A stretch of DNA of 64,000 bases from Cytophagales bacterium. GTDB lineage: Bacteria > Bacteroidota > Bacteroidia > Cytophagales > CCMP332. The stretch lies in NCBI GenBank assembly GCA_028279065.1, contig JANQSY010000022.1:1-64000 (forward strand), read 5' to 3'. Shown in pieces: positions 895 through 8,366 of this stretch; position 1 is the stretch's first letter, and the number at the start of each line of letters is the position of its first letter. The translations under genes and the position numbers were made by a program. Below the pieces are notes generated by a model. It was not told the DNA's origin and did not search any database. It saw only the letters and a program-made list of their open reading frames with translations.

Positions 895-2760
895 ATGATG
901 AAAAAATTACTTACAATATTTATCCTTAGCCTTCTTTTATCCTTCCAGTCTATGGCTGGTGGAGGACCTGACGCATATGGCTATGTCTGGTTTGATGACA
1001 CGGATACATCTGCCGTCACATACAGTTGGATCGATATCACAAGCAAGCCTGGTGTTGTCTCTGTCCCTGTCAATGCCGCTCCAGGGGGGCTTGGTGATGA
1101 CAACTCGGCGGGACCTTTCAGCATAGGTTTTGACTTCCACTATTATTGGGCCGACTTCAACATGGTCAGACTTGGATCCAATGGTTGGGTCTCTTTTGGG
1201 AATACAGGAAATATAGCGAGCTGTTTCCCAACGATTTCCAATACCAGTTCTCCCCATAATTACATGGCACCTTTTATGTCAGACCTAAACTGTGGTCCTG
1301 ATGGTGCGACCCCAAACCCCGGTTCGGTCTTCTACTGGACCAACAACGCAGACACCTTTATTGTCAGCTATATCAATGTTCCCTTTTGGACCCAGACTTC
1401 TGCCCATACGGGTTCAAACACCTTCCAGGTTATCCTTACAAATACCGATAGCTCAGTTACATTCCAATATGGTGCGGTTGAGCAATCTCTGACTTATCCA
1501 TGTAACGGTACCGGAACAACAGATTGGAAATTCGTACAGGGTATTAAGGCAATCAACGGAACAACAGGATTACAGGTAAATGCAACCCAGGATAATCTTC
1601 CTGCTGATAACTCAGCCGTTAAGTTCTTTTATCCGGATTCCATCCTTCTTCAGATTGAGGATGCCTCAGCTTTTGCTGCTTTGAACATCGAGAACGGCGG
1701 ACAATTCCTGATGAAGGACGACAAATTTGTTCCCCAGGCTTACGTGGCTAATGTGGGAAATGTGGATATCACTACCCCTACCACTGTTAATGCAGTAGTT
1801 CCTACCCTGGGTTATACCAGTTCGGTTCAGATCCCCGCTATCCTCAAGGGACAGACCTTCCTGGTTCAATTCCCAGATACACTTACCGCGATCAATGTTG
1901 GGGGGCATAGCTTTAATCTGACAATTTCAAATTCAAACGATGCTAATCCAACCAACAACTCAAACAGCACTTCGATCTCTGTAGTAGAACCTGACGGAAA
2001 TGGACATGTGAGGTTGACCTACATTGAAGAAACGACTCCAGGCGGATTGATCTCTTGGGGAGGAGCTGGCCAGGACGGTGCAGGGATCAAGATCGACCCT
2101 CCTTATTATCCCATGGTTATAAGAGGAATTGAGCATTTCGTAACTGCCGATCCAAACTCTACAGGATATACCGGTGGTGTAAGACTTCCGGACCCTAATG
2201 GCGATCCGGGACCAAGCGTGGCCAACGTCGTGGTTCCTGCCGGACAGGTGAATCTCAATGCTTGGCACAGGGTCGATTTCCAGGATTCTGTCAAGATAGA
2301 TTCAAGCTTTATCTACGTGGAATGGCTTCAGGGAGGTGCTGGAACTACTCTTGGGGCAGAAACCCCAGGTGCATATCCTCCAGGAAACAGAACCTTTGAG
2401 GTTATCGCTGGATCGTGGGCACCATACAGGACTGCCGGTTCCGATGCTTTCATTGCAATCTATATAGATACAGCAACCACCACCATGGTTGGAATTCAGG
2501 ATGTTTTCGAAGGGAACGTTTCACTTTATCCAAACCCAAGTACAGGCTTGTTCACTGTATCTGGTGAGGTGAAAGTAGATGGTCAACTGAATTGGGTAAT
2601 CACAGATCAGTTGGGCAGGAAGGTGAAATCCGTTTCTTCGGTAATTCAAAATGGAAGGATCGATACCACCATTGATCTTCATGGTCAGCCTTCAGGTATC
2701 TACTACCTTGTCCTGGGCCAATCAAGCGGACAGAAAGTATTCAAACTGGTTAAGAAATAG
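895..2760 (+). CDS. Secreted protein with type A T9SS sorting domain (tandem paralog 1)
   Basis: A 621-residue exported protein. A signal peptide (MKKLLTIF..., cleavage probably after SMA near residue 22) precedes GGGPDAYGYVW. Residues about 25-225 look like a nidogen-like or jelly-roll beta domain, with GFDFHYYW, GSNGWVSFG, NYMAPFMSDL and YWTNNADTFIVSY. Residues about 275-360 resemble a CARDB-type beta sandwich. A third domain with several glycine-rich turns follows. The final 80 residues (from about 541, VSLYPNPSTGLF to VFKLVKK) are a Por secretion C-terminal sorting domain, which sends proteins through T9SS for surface anchoring. No catalytic motif is recognised. The next gene is a close paralog. 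A second in-frame ATG at 898 could be the start. Confidence 0.85.
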   Translation: MMKKLLTIFILSLLLSFQSMAGGGPDAYGYVWFDDTDTSAVTYSWIDITSKPGVVSVPVNAAPGGLGDDNSAGPFSIGFDFHYYWADFNMVRLGSNGWVSFGNTGNIASCFPTISNTSSPHNYMAPFMSDLNCGPDGATPNPGSVFYWTNNADTFIVSYINVPFWTQTSAHTGSNTFQVILTNTDSSVTFQYGAVEQSLTYPCNGTGTTDWKFVQGIKAINGTTGLQVNATQDNLPADNSAVKFFYPDSILLQIEDASAFAALNIENGGQFLMKDDKFVPQAYVANVGNVDITTPTTVNAVVPTLGYTSSVQIPAILKGQTFLVQFPDTLTAINVGGHSFNLTISNSNDANPTNNSNSTSISVVEPDGNGHVRLTYIEETTPGGLISWGGAGQDGAGIKIDPPYYPMVIRGIEHFVTADPNSTGYTGGVRLPDPNGDPGPSVANVVVPAGQVNLNAWHRVDFQDSVKIDSSFIYVEWLQGGAGTTLGAETPGAYPPGNRTFEVIAGSWAPYRTAGSDAFIAIYIDTATTTMVGIQDVFEGNVSLYPNPSTGLFTVSGEVKVDGQLNWVITDQLGRKVKSVSSVIQNGRIDTTIDLHGQPSGIYYLVLGQSSGQKVFKLVKK

Positions 2761-2781
2761 GTTCTATTTGAGCAAAAGATC

Positions 2782-2820
2782 ATCCCCCGGTTCTTACTAT
2801 TAGGATCGGGGGATTTTTTT
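2782..2820 (+). terminator. Rho-independent terminator after cargo paralog 1
   Basis: Arms ATCCCCCG (2782-2789) and CGGGGGAT (2807-2814) pair perfectly across a 17-nt loop and run into a seven-T tract ending at 2820. The outer arm is shared with the terminator after the second paralog. Confidence 0.85.
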
Positions 2821-2823
2821 TAC

Positions 2824-2854
2824 TTTTCATTGAACCAGGGAATGGTTACCTTTA
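2824..2854 (+). promoter_or_regulatory. Weak candidate promoter for cargo paralog 2
   Basis: TACCTTTA at 2847-2854 matches TAnnTTTG except for the last base, and TTTT at 2824-2827 lies 19 bp upstream. The arrangement resembles the promoter proposed for paralog 1, which would fit duplication of the promoter with the gene. Confidence 0.3.
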
Positions 2855-2890
2855 AATTGATCATTAAGCTCATTTTCAGAACTCATTATC

Positions 2891-4768
2891 ATGAAAAAAC
2901 TACTATACTCTATTTTCCTTATCCCGGTTTGTCTTTTGCCCGCATTTTCCGGAGGAGGACCTGATGCATTTGGCTATGTATGGTATAATGACACAGATAC
3001 GTCAATTGTAGCATACAATTGGATCGACATATCAACTAAGGCTGGTGTTGTAACCATACCTTCAGGTGGTATTCCCCCTGCTTCTCCTGGATTGCAGGAT
3101 GATAACTCCTTTGGATTGATCAATATCGGTTTTGACTTTCATTACTATTGGGGAGATTTCGACCAGCTCAAAGTAGGTTCAAATGGCTGGCTTGGATTTG
3201 CCAATATTGGGAACATAGCGAGCTGTTTCCCAACGATGACCAATACCAGCCCACCACATAATTACATTGCTCCGATGATGTCGGATCTGAATTTTGCGGC
3301 AAATGGCAGCACCCAGAATCCGGGTTCTGTCCAATACTGGACCAATAATGCTGATACCTTTATCATTTCCTATGAAACAGTACCCTTTTGGACCCCGGCC
3401 AGCCCACATACAGGTGCCAATACCTTTCAGGTAATCCTATGTGGTACAGATAGTTCAATAACCTACCAATACGGGGCGGTTGAGCAGACGCTAACCTATA
3501 ACTGTGCCGGAGCCGGTACTACTGATTGGAAATACGTGCAGGGGATTAAAGCGATCAATGGAAGCACAGGATTGATGGTCAATGCAACCCATGACAATCT
3601 TGCCGGAGATAACACAGCGGTTAAGTTCTTTTATCCGGATTCCATTCTCCTTCAGATCCAGGACGCTGCAGCTGATGCAGTATTGAACTCAGATAATGGG
3701 GGTGAGTTTGTATTAAAAGACGAACCCTATGTTCCCCAGGCATATGTGGCTAATGTTGGTAACGTGGACATCAGTACACCGACCACGGTCAACTGTAATA
3801 TCATTGGCCTTGGGTACGTCAGTTCTGTAACCATTCCGGCCATTCTTCAAGGACAGACATTCCTTGTCCAGTTTCCGGATACCCTTGTACCGTCGGTTTC
3901 CGGGGACTTTAGTTTCAGCATGTCAATTTCCAATTCGAATGATGCAAATCCGTCAAATAATTCTACTGCCGCTGAGATCAATGTGGTTGAACCGGATGCC
4001 AATGGCAATCTGCGCTTGAGTTATGCCAGTTCAGCTACTCCACTGGGAGTTTCATGGACCAATGGAGATACGGACGATGGGATCGGAATAATGGTAGAGC
4101 CCCCCTTCTACCCCATGGTGATCCGGAGTTTAGAGCATTTGGTGGTAGCAGATGCCAATAATTCAGGGTATATCGGTGATGTACGTCTACCCGATCCAAA
4201 TGGAGATCCCGGACCAGTTGTTGGATCGGTCGTAGCTCCCGGAGGAACCTTTACCCCTGGTACCTGGAACCAACTGGCTCTTACCGATTCTGTTAAGATC
4301 GATTCGGGAAATGTATATGTAGGAATGTATATGGGCGGAACAGGTGTCACGATGGGTAGAGAAGATGCTACTACAAATCCAAACGGAAACAGAAGCTATG
4401 AGATATTGGCAGGATCCTGGGCCCCTTTGAGGTTCGCGGGCTCTGATTCCTATATCGCCATTTATATCGATACCCCCTCCACCCAGCCTCCTCCTGTCGG
4501 GATCTGGGATATCGCTGATGGAGGCATATCCTTGTTTCCAAATCCTAGCGATGGTATTTTCAGGATCAATGGTAAAACCAAACAGGAAGGAGAGTTTGAG
4601 TGGGCAGTTGTAGACCAATTGGGAAGGACTGTCAAAAGATTATCCACCCGCATCTCCGGAGAATCATTTGGATTTGACGTGGACCTAAGGGATCATGAAT
4701 CCGGAGTTTATTACCTTGTGTTAGGGGACAGCCAGGGGCGAAAAGTCTTTAAACTGGTGAAAAAGTAA
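2891..4768 (+). CDS. Secreted protein with type A T9SS sorting domain (tandem paralog 2)
   Basis: This 625-residue protein aligns end to end with its upstream neighbour. It has a signal peptide, the same GGGPDAFGYVW start to the mature protein, the beta-rich N-terminal domain, the CARDB-like region, the variable third domain and a C-terminal sorting domain from about residue 546 (ISLFPNPSDG to VFKLVKK). By eye well over half the residues are identical, and the N-terminal domain is best conserved. Two stretches are identical in DNA (1213-1235 with 3215-3237, and 1618-1643 with 3620-3645), which suggests a fairly recent duplication or gene conversion. The function is unknown; a surface adhesin or structural role is a guess from the domain types. 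Confidence 0.85.
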   Translation: MKKLLYSIFLIPVCLLPAFSGGGPDAFGYVWYNDTDTSIVAYNWIDISTKAGVVTIPSGGIPPASPGLQDDNSFGLINIGFDFHYYWGDFDQLKVGSNGWLGFANIGNIASCFPTMTNTSPPHNYIAPMMSDLNFAANGSTQNPGSVQYWTNNADTFIISYETVPFWTPASPHTGANTFQVILCGTDSSITYQYGAVEQTLTYNCAGAGTTDWKYVQGIKAINGSTGLMVNATHDNLAGDNTAVKFFYPDSILLQIQDAAADAVLNSDNGGEFVLKDEPYVPQAYVANVGNVDISTPTTVNCNIIGLGYVSSVTIPAILQGQTFLVQFPDTLVPSVSGDFSFSMSISNSNDANPSNNSTAAEINVVEPDANGNLRLSYASSATPLGVSWTNGDTDDGIGIMVEPPFYPMVIRSLEHLVVADANNSGYIGDVRLPDPNGDPGPVVGSVVAPGGTFTPGTWNQLALTDSVKIDSGNVYVGMYMGGTGVTMGREDATTNPNGNRSYEILAGSWAPLRFAGSDSYIAIYIDTPSTQPPPVGIWDIADGGISLFPNPSDGIFRINGKTKQEGEFEWAVVDQLGRTVKRLSTRISGESFGFDVDLRDHESGVYYLVLGDSQGRKVFKLVKK

Positions 4769-4787
4769 TCCATATTCCTCTTTTTCT

Positions 4788-4843
4788 TCCCCCGGGTCCA
4801 TGCTTAAGGAATTTTCCTTGAAGGGGCTCGGGGGATTTTTTTT
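4788..4843 (+). terminator. Terminator after cargo paralog 2, with nested hairpin
   Basis: The outer arms TCCCCCG (4788-4794) and CGGGGGA (4829-4835) are followed by eight T residues. The loop contains a second hairpin, AAGGA (4806-4810) with TCCTT (4815-4819), extendable by CTT/AAG. The outer stem matches the terminator of the first paralog. Confidence 0.8.
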
Positions 4844-4848
4844 AAACC

Positions 4849-4856
4849 TAATTTTG
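4849..4856 (+). promoter_or_regulatory. -7 element upstream of the pterin genes
   Basis: TAATTTTG fits the TAnnTTTG consensus and ends 21 bp before the ATG at 4878. The expected -33 position falls inside the preceding terminator and shows no TTTG, so the call is tentative. Confidence 0.35.
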
Positions 4857-4877
4857 AGCTCGCTTGTTTAAACAACA

Positions 4878-5291
4878 ATGAAGGTCTCTGTAATCAGGAG
4901 GGAAAGATTCAACGCTGCGCATAGATTGTACCGCAAGGATTGGGATGATGCTCGGAATGAGGAGGTGTTCGGGCTTTGCTCAAACCCAAGTTATCATGGG
5001 CACAATTATGAATTCTTTGTGAAGGTTTCCGGTGAAATAGACCATGACACCGGGTTGGTTTATGACCTCAAAAAGCTAAAAGAAATTATCAGGGACAATA
5101 TTATTGATAAATTTGACCATAGGAATCTAAACCTGGACACCCAGGAATTCAAAGATCTTAACCCAACAGCTGAGAATATCGTCAAAGTAATTTACGATCT
5201 TCTTAGGCCCAAGATCGAAAGCGAATTTCAGGTATCCATCAAGCTTTATGAAACAGAAAGAAATTTTGTTGAGTACCCAGCAGATCAATGA
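4878..5291 (+). CDS. 6-pyruvoyl-tetrahydropterin synthase family protein, animal-PTPS-like
   Basis: At 137 residues this has the usual size of the PTPS/QueD family. The zinc ligands His15 (in FNAAHRLY), His40 and His42 (HGHNY) are present. So are the catalytic Cys34, the Asp80-His81 pair (DHRNL) and Glu125 (YET). The segment FGLCSNPSYHGHNY has a C-x5-HGH spacing, which I recall from animal PTPS, rather than the C-x3-HGH of typical QueD. The GEID..TG and DH.NL motifs also resemble the animal enzymes. PTPS converts dihydroneopterin triphosphate to 6-pyruvoyl-tetrahydropterin; QueD makes 6-carboxy-tetrahydropterin for queuosine. The next gene, folE, makes the substrate of either, and the reading frames overlap by 44 bp. 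QueD function is not excluded. Confidence 0.85.
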   Translation: MKVSVIRRERFNAAHRLYRKDWDDARNEEVFGLCSNPSYHGHNYEFFVKVSGEIDHDTGLVYDLKKLKEIIRDNIIDKFDHRNLNLDTQEFKDLNPTAENIVKVIYDLLRPKIESEFQVSIKLYETERNFVEYPADQ

Positions 5292-5937
5292 GTATCTGGA
5301 CGAAGTTGGTGAAAGCCATATCTCCACCTCATATGATACTCCTTTAAGAAGTGATGCTTTTGATCTAAGCGATGATGAAAAGGTGGAGATCATTGAAGGG
5401 CATTTTCGTGCCATAATGGAGACTCTGGGTCTTGACCTTGAGGATGATAGCTTGAAAGGAACTCCCAGAAGGGTCGCCAAAATGTATGTAAAAGAGGTGT
5501 TCAGAGGCTTAAATCCAAAGAATAAACCCCATGCCCGACTTTTTAGCAATAAGTACGATTACGATCAGATGATCGTAGAAAAGGATATTACTTTCTACTC
5601 CTATTGCGAACACCATTTCGTACCAATTTTTGGTAAGGCCCATGTGGCTTATATATCCAGTGGTAAGATCATTGGTCTTAGTAAGATCAATAGAATCGTT
5701 CAATACTTTGCTCAGCGACCTCAAGTACAGGAAAGATTGACCGTCCAGGTTGCTGAGGAAATGAAAAAAGCTCTGCAAACGGAGCATGTTGGTGTGGTCA
5801 TGGATGCCACCCACCTTTGTGTAGCCTCAAGAGGAGTTGGCGATACCAGTTCAAAAACAGGCACTGCTTACTTTTCAGGAAAGTTCAAGGATGAAAACGT
5901 TAAGCGGGAATTCTTAAATTACATCAACGTTTCATAG
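5248..5937 (+). CDS. folE: GTP cyclohydrolase I
   Basis: FolE converts GTP to 7,8-dihydroneopterin triphosphate, the first step of folate and biopterin synthesis. The 229-residue product has the zinc site Cys120 and His123 (SYCEHHFVPI) and Cys191 (HLCVASRGV), plus GLSKINRIVQYFAQRPQVQE and the TGTAYFSG region near the end. Its only upstream ATG, at 5248, lies 44 bp inside the previous gene. The ATG at 5288 is in another frame and the next in-frame ATG falls within the conserved domain. The start is therefore 5248 or an alternative codon such as one of the TTGs at 5266-5271. The overlap implies cotranscription and probably translational coupling with the PTPS-like gene. Confidence 0.93.
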   Translation: MKQKEILLSTQQINEYLDEVGESHISTSYDTPLRSDAFDLSDDEKVEIIEGHFRAIMETLGLDLEDDSLKGTPRRVAKMYVKEVFRGLNPKNKPHARLFSNKYDYDQMIVEKDITFYSYCEHHFVPIFGKAHVAYISSGKIIGLSKINRIVQYFAQRPQVQERLTVQVAEEMKKALQTEHVGVVMDATHLCVASRGVGDTSSKTGTAYFSGKFKDENVKREFLNYINVS

Positions 5938-5996: not shown

Positions 5997-8366
5997 ATGA
6001 GAAAACCTCTAACCCTACTAGTCTCTCTATGCCTATGCCTTAATGTTGCTCAGGCCATTGCCCAGTGCAAGGGATCCTCTCCCCTGGACCTGAAAACGAT
6101 AATGACAGGCTATGAGTTTATCGGTCAAAGACCAGACAATGCTCGATGGAACCTTTCTTCTACCGGGCTTTACTTTGATTGGAACCCTGAAGACAAACTG
6201 GTAGGAGATAAATATTTCCATGATCTAGGATCCGGTGAGAGCAAAATTGTGGATCCTTCTGAATATGACCTGATGCCACCTCGGAGTTTTATAGAATCTT
6301 CTTCGGGCATGATTTACTATAGCAGTTCTGGTGATATTTTTTCTTTTGAGAAAGCTTCAGGAAGAATTGTAAGGATCACACAAACCTTTGATTATGAAAG
6401 GATCATAGGCCTGGATTCCGATGAAAAAGGAATTTATTACACACGTAGTTCCAATGTTTATCACCTGGATTTTGGGACTGCCAGGACCCGGCAGATCACA
6501 AATTTTTCAAAGGGTAACAAAAGCGGAAAGGAAGAGGATAAAACCTGGATTGAAAAAGAGGAGTTGGAGCTCTTCAAGATCGTGAAAAAGAGAGAGGAAA
6601 CCGAAGAACTCAAAGACGAGATCGAAAAATTGGAGGATGAGGGAAAAGCAAAAAAGTGGTATTACGGAAAGGCTTATTTGACCAGCTTCTCTATAACTCC
6701 GAATGGGCGATTTGTGATCTTCAAAGAGGTAAATTCAAACAAGAATCCCTCCACCAAGGGGATGGATTTTGTGACCAACGAGGGTTATGCAAAGAGCCTT
6801 GATGGAAGGGCGAAAGTGGGATTAAAAAGGGATGACCAAAAGTTGGCGATCTACGATACCCAAAATGACACAGTTTTCTATGCTTCTACGGCACAGCTTC
6901 CAGGGATATATGATAAGGCTGAGTTCCTTAAAGAATATCATCAAGGAAAGGACAAATACATGGATACATATCCCCAACCCAAAGGGGTTTATTTTCATGG
7001 CCCAAAGATCTCTGGGTCCGGAAGGATCGTCATGGACATCAAGTCTTATGACAATAAGGATCGCTGGATAGCGGAACTTGACCCCGAAAAGGGTGAATTC
7101 GTTTCCATTGACCACCAGCATGATGAAGCATGGATCGGTGGACCTGGAATAGTGGGATGGACCTCAGTTCCGGGGAATTATGGATGGTTTGAGGATCAGG
7201 ACAAGATCTTTTTCCAATCAGAGGAAACAGGATTTTCCCACCTATACAGCTATGATCTGAAAACCAGGAAAAAGAAAGCCTTGACCAAGGGGAAATTTGA
7301 AGTTTATGGAGCAGAACTAAACAATGATAATTCTGGGTTCTGGTTGGTTTCCAATGAAGGTGGACCGGCTGAAAGGCATCTTTATTCCCTGGATGTTGAA
7401 AGCCTGGAAAGAAGAAAGATCACCTCAATGCCAGGAAAACATGATATAGAGATCTCACCAGATGAGAAATGGGCGGTTTCAAGATATTCCTACTCCAATA
7501 AGCCCTGGGAGTTTTTCCTGATTCCATTGGAGGGAAATGGGGAAGTAAAGCAGATCACCAGATCAAACAAGCCTGAATTTGAGAAGTATAGCTGGCGAGT
7601 ACCGGAGATCATCAAGTTCAAGGCCGAAGATGGCGAAGAGGTCAGTGCAAGGATCTACAAGCCTGAAAATGCAAAGAAAAACGGAGCCGCCGTGATATTC
7701 GTACACGGCGCAGGTTATCTTCAAAATGTCCATAGTTGGTGGAGCAGTTATTACCGTGAATACATGTTCCACAACCTATTAACAGACCATGGTTATACTG
7801 TCCTGGATATCGATTATAGGGGCAGCGAAGGCTATGGAAGGGATTGGAGAACAGGGATCTACCGCCACATGGGTGGCAAAGACCTCAGTGACCAGATTGA
7901 TGGGGCTAAATACTTGATCGAAAACCAGGGTATTGAGAAAGAAAGAATAGGAATTTATGGAGGATCATATGGGGGTTTCATTACCCTGATGGCCTTGTTC
8001 AAAAACCCTGGGGTCTTCCAGGGCGGGGCTGCCCTAAGGTCCGTAACAGACTGGGCGCATTATAACCATCCTTACACCTCAAATATTCTTAATACTCCCG
8101 AGGAAGACCCAAAAGCTTTCAGACAGAGTTCTCCGATCTACTTTGCGGAAGGACTTGAAGACAGACTATTGATGTTACACGGAATGGTCGATATGAACGT
8201 TCAGTTCCAGGATATTGTTCGTTTATCCCAACGTTTGATCGAATTGGAAAAGGAAAACTGGGAATTGGCATCATTCCCCATTGAGGGACATGGTTTCAAA
8301 GAATCCAGCTCCTGGCATGATGAATACAGGAGGATTTTTGAATTATTTTGTGAAGAGCTGGAATAA
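5997..8366 (+). CDS. S9 family serine peptidase, dipeptidyl peptidase IV-like
   Basis: The protein is 789 residues. A signal peptide (MRKPLTLLVSLCLCLNVAQAIAQ) indicates export, probably to the periplasm. The N-terminal half is a beta-propeller of the DPP4 type, with a charged Lys/Glu-rich insertion around residues 175-225. The C-terminal alpha/beta hydrolase domain carries the catalytic serine in GGSYGG (Ser657), aspartate in GMVDMN (Asp732) and histidine in EGHGF (His765). Such enzymes cut small peptides, often after proline or alanine, and support peptide feeding. It lies 59 bp after folE with no terminator and is followed 36 bp later by a LOG-family gene. Confidence 0.9.
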   Translation: MRKPLTLLVSLCLCLNVAQAIAQCKGSSPLDLKTIMTGYEFIGQRPDNARWNLSSTGLYFDWNPEDKLVGDKYFHDLGSGESKIVDPSEYDLMPPRSFIESSSGMIYYSSSGDIFSFEKASGRIVRITQTFDYERIIGLDSDEKGIYYTRSSNVYHLDFGTARTRQITNFSKGNKSGKEEDKTWIEKEELELFKIVKKREETEELKDEIEKLEDEGKAKKWYYGKAYLTSFSITPNGRFVIFKEVNSNKNPSTKGMDFVTNEGYAKSLDGRAKVGLKRDDQKLAIYDTQNDTVFYASTAQLPGIYDKAEFLKEYHQGKDKYMDTYPQPKGVYFHGPKISGSGRIVMDIKSYDNKDRWIAELDPEKGEFVSIDHQHDEAWIGGPGIVGWTSVPGNYGWFEDQDKIFFQSEETGFSHLYSYDLKTRKKKALTKGKFEVYGAELNNDNSGFWLVSNEGGPAERHLYSLDVESLERRKITSMPGKHDIEISPDEKWAVSRYSYSNKPWEFFLIPLEGNGEVKQITRSNKPEFEKYSWRVPEIIKFKAEDGEEVSARIYKPENAKKNGAAVIFVHGAGYLQNVHSWWSSYYREYMFHNLLTDHGYTVLDIDYRGSEGYGRDWRTGIYRHMGGKDLSDQIDGAKYLIENQGIEKERIGIYGGSYGGFITLMALFKNPGVFQGGAALRSVTDWAHYNHPYTSNILNTPEEDPKAFRQSSPIYFAEGLEDRLLMLHGMVDMNVQFQDIVRLSQRLIELEKENWELASFPIEGHGFKESSSWHDEYRRIFELFCEELE

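Follow-up and report, generated by a model that had tools for sequence, protein, structure and literature searches.

Tandem T9SS cargo paralogs in a Cytophagales bacterium, with a terminator doubled along with the gene and possible patchy gene conversion

Two neighbouring genes of a Cytophagales bacterium, here called A and B, are best explained as tandem paralogs of a T9SS surface protein family, in which coding sequence and terminator were doubled together, gene conversion later acted on part of the pair, and the locus was gained within the lineage. We regard this account, taken as a whole, as fairly probable, and its parts differ in strength as described below. Both genes lie in a window of 64,000 nucleotides (contig JANQSY010000022.1, assembly GCA_028279065.1), the whole stretch that was analysed. 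Among the papers that a literature search listed, none describes the pair.

The gene pair and its terminators

The features of the duplicated block are as follows.

895-2760, + strand: ORF A, 621 aa, T9SS cargo
2891-4768, + strand: ORF B, 625 aa, paralog of A with 61.8% amino acid identity
2782-2821, + strand: terminator following A, a stem of 13 bp that includes CCCCCG/CGGGGG, with a T tract after it
4788-4843, + strand: terminator following B, a long stem whose outer part is again CCCCCG/CGGGGG, with a T tract after it
837-844, + strand: TATCTTTG, possible promoter of A, fitting TAnnTTTG in a scripted pattern search, 51 bases before the start codon of A

The two ORFs stand head to tail as immediate neighbours, and their proteins align end to end with 383 of 620 residues identical; nucleotide identity is 63.1%. 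An earlier reading of the DNA made from the letters only (the sequence-only reading) had described two 620-residue proteins aligning throughout, of which the alignment stands but the exact length does not. Within its own genome, B is the only full-length match to A, the other 12 matches being confined to the tail region.

Both terminators fold well, with z scores of -5.5 (A) and -3.1 (B), and their right arms match at 19 of 20 nt. The pattern CCCCCGN{10,40}CGGGGGATTTTT occurs at two places in the 3.59-Mb assembly, one behind A and the other behind B, in agreement with the earlier observation that both terminators have this outer stem and a T tract; a stem one step shorter, CCCCG/CGGGG, was found at two other places. 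Downstream DNA of 15 relatives, read by eye, did not have the CCCCCG/CGGGGG frame. Since the frame is found in the assembly at A and B only, gene and terminator were doubled together. No similarity was seen between the DNA upstream of A and that upstream of B (shuffle p 0.70), so that the duplicated block comprises the coding sequence and the terminator; the proposal that a whole transcription unit was duplicated holds for these two elements and fails for the upstream DNA. A promoter common to A and B was rejected on the same comparison. The -7 element consensus of Bacteroidota is TAnnTTTG, and the candidate TATCTTTG is weak as a promoter of A because this consensus occurs 25 times in the window with both strands counted.

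Domain composition and probable function

Protein A consists of an N-terminal hydrophobic leader (recognised by eye), a NIDO-like domain, a CARDB domain, a beta domain between the CARDB-like domain and the tail, and a type A sorting tail.

2524-2757, + strand: C-terminal sorting tail of A (T9SS type A), residues 544-621
4532-4765, + strand: C-terminal sorting tail of B (T9SS type A), residues 548-625
958-1641, + strand: N-terminal NIDO-like domain of A, limits approximate; in B the corresponding domain runs from 2951
1642-1992, + strand: CARDB-like domain of A, residues 250-366, predicted fold

Both tails exceed the cut-offs of the type A cargo profiles, with 36.1 (A) and 32.8 (B) bits for Pfam PF18962 (cut-off 27) and 36.5 and 33.5 bits for NCBIfam TIGR04183 (cut-off 23). 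The T9SS translocon gene sprA (TIGR04189) is present in the genome at 2348 bits against a cut-off of 200, and the same profile found no match in 14 control genomes. In these respects A and B are like other type A cargo; they differ in that the family combines NIDO-like, CARDB and beta domains and no enzyme domain was recognised in A or B. A sequence search of the PDB with the family alignment returned the sorting tail of 5jvk (0.00047). Matches to legumain in that search (0.0067 and worse) were weak and were taken as chance.

The N-terminal domain was modelled poorly, both within the full-length model of A (residues 13-253) and alone (mean pLDDT 27.9), so the fold search with the full model informs only on residues 256-366. 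Direct matches to Pfam NIDO (PF06119) reach 15.0 bits in A and 12.8 bits in B, below the cut-off of 25, for which reason we name the domain NIDO-like and not NIDO. These matches cover profile positions 76-120 (77-120 in A). The A/B profile also finds proteins across the phylum, and six of the eight scanned (L084-L089) exceed the NIDO cut-off at profile positions 1-60, so that the two matches are collinear. By this linking argument, NIDO-like appears to be the best name for a domain that the sequence-only reading had left without one.

The predicted model of residues 250-366 (pLDDT about 70-88) matches the CARDB structure 3idu with Z 13.8 and rmsd 2.2 over 107 aligned residues, and we assign this predicted region to the CARDB fold. 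Pfam CARDB (PF07705) matches two of seven family members, the best at 6e-05, whereas A and B have no match to it at E 1.

In T9SS cargo the tail is removed by cleavage, and the protein is either attached to the surface or released. By analogy with their family, A and B are probably surface-anchored adhesins: they would carry a Sec leader, be exported by the T9SS, lose the tail and be fixed to the cell surface, where the NIDO-like, CARDB and beta domains may act in adhesion or matrix binding, as the first two of these domains suggest.

Relatives and age of the duplication

Both trees, one of 17 rows and one of 35, place A and B as sisters with support 100/100; together with the terminator frame found, within the assembly, only at A and B, this bears out the earlier claim of a tandem duplication. 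Near copies (L060, L062), members of the same lineage as L059-L062 (L117-L121) and duplicate places or split or partial genes (L129, L135, L136, L139) were dropped before the 35-row tree; L064, L065 and L071 stand outside both trees. A and B fall together in a group with G008 and sequences of other orders (95/96), not with the f9 sequences of their own order, and their nearest sequences have about 40% protein identity.

A profile search of contigs with A alone gave nothing, and with the alignment it gave seven loci. At E 1e-25 the A/B profile matched 11 of 389 other genomes in the order sample. In the class sample it matched 98 of 394 genomes, usually with one copy and with all rows outside the order of A and B. 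At 1e-10, 19 genomes of the order sample matched, eight with the N-terminal domain only, as did 23 of 394 in the phylum sample, mostly with the N-terminal domain inside proteins of 1100-2200 aa. Two other adjacent pairs, L133 (G783:C53) and L134 (G880:C6), are sisters with support 98/95 and 100/99, so tandem doubling has happened more than once in this protein family, the two further cases being in other families of the class. As an event, the duplication of A and B is of a common sort, and the proteins belong to a widely distributed family.

Four-fold sites of A and B are identical at 66 of 193 positions overall, which is saturated. Four ortholog comparisons between this genome (G000) and G001, a relative of the same genus, are equally saturated (16/35, 24/76, 48/124 and 22/66; together 110/301). 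Dating of the duplication by synonymous sites was therefore rejected, and the saturation of A and B does not show old age.

Outside Bacteroidota, in records titled Zixibacteria and Calditrichaeota, proteins combine the N-terminal domain of this family with a tail of T9SS type (L063, 5890-8142, and L065, 5869-9819). In G852:C402 (L129/L135), a family member of 1000 aa is directly preceded by an ORF of 335 aa that has only the N-terminal part and may be a truncated second copy.

Uneven divergence between A and B

The two coding sequences have not diverged evenly.

895-1725, + strand: residues 1-277 of A, synonymous sites still B-like by codon and four-fold-site identity
1618-1643, + strand: 26-nt stretch in A, exact copy at 3620-3645 in B
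1213-1235, + strand: 23-nt stretch in A, exact copy at 3215-3237 in B

At identical residues, codon identity in residues 1-277 is 93/177 against 68.8 expected, and 78/161 against 62.4 when the two identical stretches are removed; it is 56/148 against 52.2 in residues 278-530 and 13/45 against 15.6 in the tail. Four-fold sites, for which the expected identity is 0.24-0.27, agree at 38/85 positions in residues 1-277 (32/79 without the stretches) and give no signal beyond residue 277 (24/86 and 4/22). The best split of divergence falls after residue 286, with permutation p 0.0034 with the stretches and 0.046 without them. Uniform divergence along the gene was thus not what we found, retention being confined to residues 1-277 and the stretches; the patchy homogenisation proposed from the sequence-only reading has moderate support from the regional retention, the contrast being weak when the stretches are left out.

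The 23- and 26-nt stretches that had been pointed out earlier are exact and longer than null models give. With codons drawn independently (5000 draws for each of two codon tables), a longest run of at least 26 with a second of at least 23 has p 0.0002, and with codon pairs shuffled 20000 times within each amino acid both runs jointly have p 0.0018. The longest nucleotide run alone has p 0.012-0.031 across nulls, and the longest run of identical codons alone p 0.10. A genome search that allowed up to three mismatches gave no second place for either stretch beyond the pair, and a repeat element or uptake sequence as their cause was rejected for that reason. Patchy gene conversion between A and B has moderate support from these comparisons and would account for the pattern.

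Genomic site

The pair lies between a divergent gene on the left and two genes on the right.

2-673, - strand: left neighbour, N-terminal part of the protein, presumably fasciclin-like; its counterparts in G001 and G002 flank PTPS directly
4878-5937, + strand: right neighbours, a PTPS family gene (4878-5291) and the GTP cyclohydrolase I gene folE (5248-5937)

Two relatives of the same family were compared at this site, G001 (same genus) and G002, and the PTPS and GTP cyclohydrolase I genes are conserved in both. In G002 a single contig carries PTPS and the left gene in divergent orientation, separated by about 0.2 kb and without A and B. In G001 the start of the left gene lies 0.2 kb before PTPS on contig C260, which begins in the first codons of that gene (MRKFDFFKLSG there, resembling MKKMNLLKLGG here); as the contig breaks in the left gene, an empty site in G001 is very probable although not seen whole. 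Neither genome has a full-length homologue of A or B anywhere. From these comparisons the pair, or a single ancestor, was probably gained in the lineage between the left gene and PTPS-folE. A gain is the shorter account, and two losses are possible. As to an insertion signature at A and B, it was rejected, the left flank (661-960) and positions 4766-4890 sharing no 9-mer.

Alternative explanations and proposed mechanism

How much of the uneven divergence needs conversion? In a plain tandem duplication the 5' part would simply be more constrained and the two runs would be chance in conserved motifs. The runs do sit in such motifs (IASCFPT and VKFFYPDSI), the next longest identical run is 13 nt, and protein identity is higher as well in the more conserved 5' part, where a slower rate of change could look like conversion; the single longest run reaches p 0.031 and the regional contrast without runs only the p 0.046 given above. 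Against this, both runs jointly have p 0.0018 or less, four-fold sites outside the runs exceed the expectation of 0.27 in residues 1-277 and not elsewhere, and neither A nor B compared with 15 relatives has a comparable codon excess in the first part (largest z 1.84). We therefore hold duplication without conversion to be a serious but somewhat less probable reading. The comparisons above show that the block of coding sequence and terminator was doubled head to tail and that the two copies have since diverged to 62% protein identity. On the reading that includes conversion, parts of the first 830 bases were likely overwritten after the first divergence, and both the identical stretches of 26 and 23 nt and the lower divergence of the 5' part would stem from this.

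The place of the duplication can also be questioned, as the pair might have been duplicated elsewhere and have come ready-made by horizontal transfer. The empty site of G002, and very probably of G001, would fit, as would the sparse occurrence of the family in the order relative to the class sample and the grouping of A and B with other orders and G008; however, the nearest possible donor has only about 40% protein identity, A and B do not stand out from the window in base composition (GC 0.466 vs 0.437; GC3 0.44), flanking direct repeats of at least 9 bases are absent, neither the plasmid collection nor viral contigs (searched by patterns) gave a match, and two losses are also conceivable. 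Arrival as a finished pair is in our judgement rather unlikely, while a gain of the pair or of one ancestor between the fasciclin-like gene and PTPS-folE is likely. That A and B are instead old, separate orthologous lineages kept side by side, as the saturated four-fold sites could suggest, is very improbable: the two are closest to each other in both trees, the saturation of the G000/G001 orthologs deprives that argument of its force, and separate A and B orthologs, the finding that the sequence-only reading had named as pointing to an old duplication, were not seen in relatives, most of which hold one copy while A and B group together.

Relation to known systems

A report on Porphyromonas gingivalis describes how genes for surface proteins exported by the T9SS undergo exchange and rearrangement, and it names gene conversion as a capability of that species (PMC5266723). 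That precedent concerns many genomes and acts between strains and adhesin domains, whereas for A and B we infer conversion from one pair in one genome. With A and B there is a clear example of duplication that took in both a T9SS cargo gene and its terminator; their family is one that Pfam does not recognise as a whole, that is common in the class and that has two further sister tandem pairs. If the conversion is real, it would be a route by which bacteria of this kind could vary their surface proteins with the sorting tail kept. A bolder extension, which we consider quite unlikely, is that the gained pair put two strong terminators between ancestral upstream DNA and the PTPS-folE genes and goes on copying its outward, NIDO-like half between the two genes while the remainder drifts, which would make it a small engine of surface variation.

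Observations on neighbouring genes

In G001, locus L112 (C294, 3824-6065) has three adjacent matches to the left gene, which suggests a local array there. Next to folE, the window holds an S9-type peptidase gene (5997-8366) whose C-terminal 221 residues are far more conserved than the rest: 202 of 221 are identical in G001, with 347 of 599 before them, and 172 of 221 in G002, with 229 of 559 before them.
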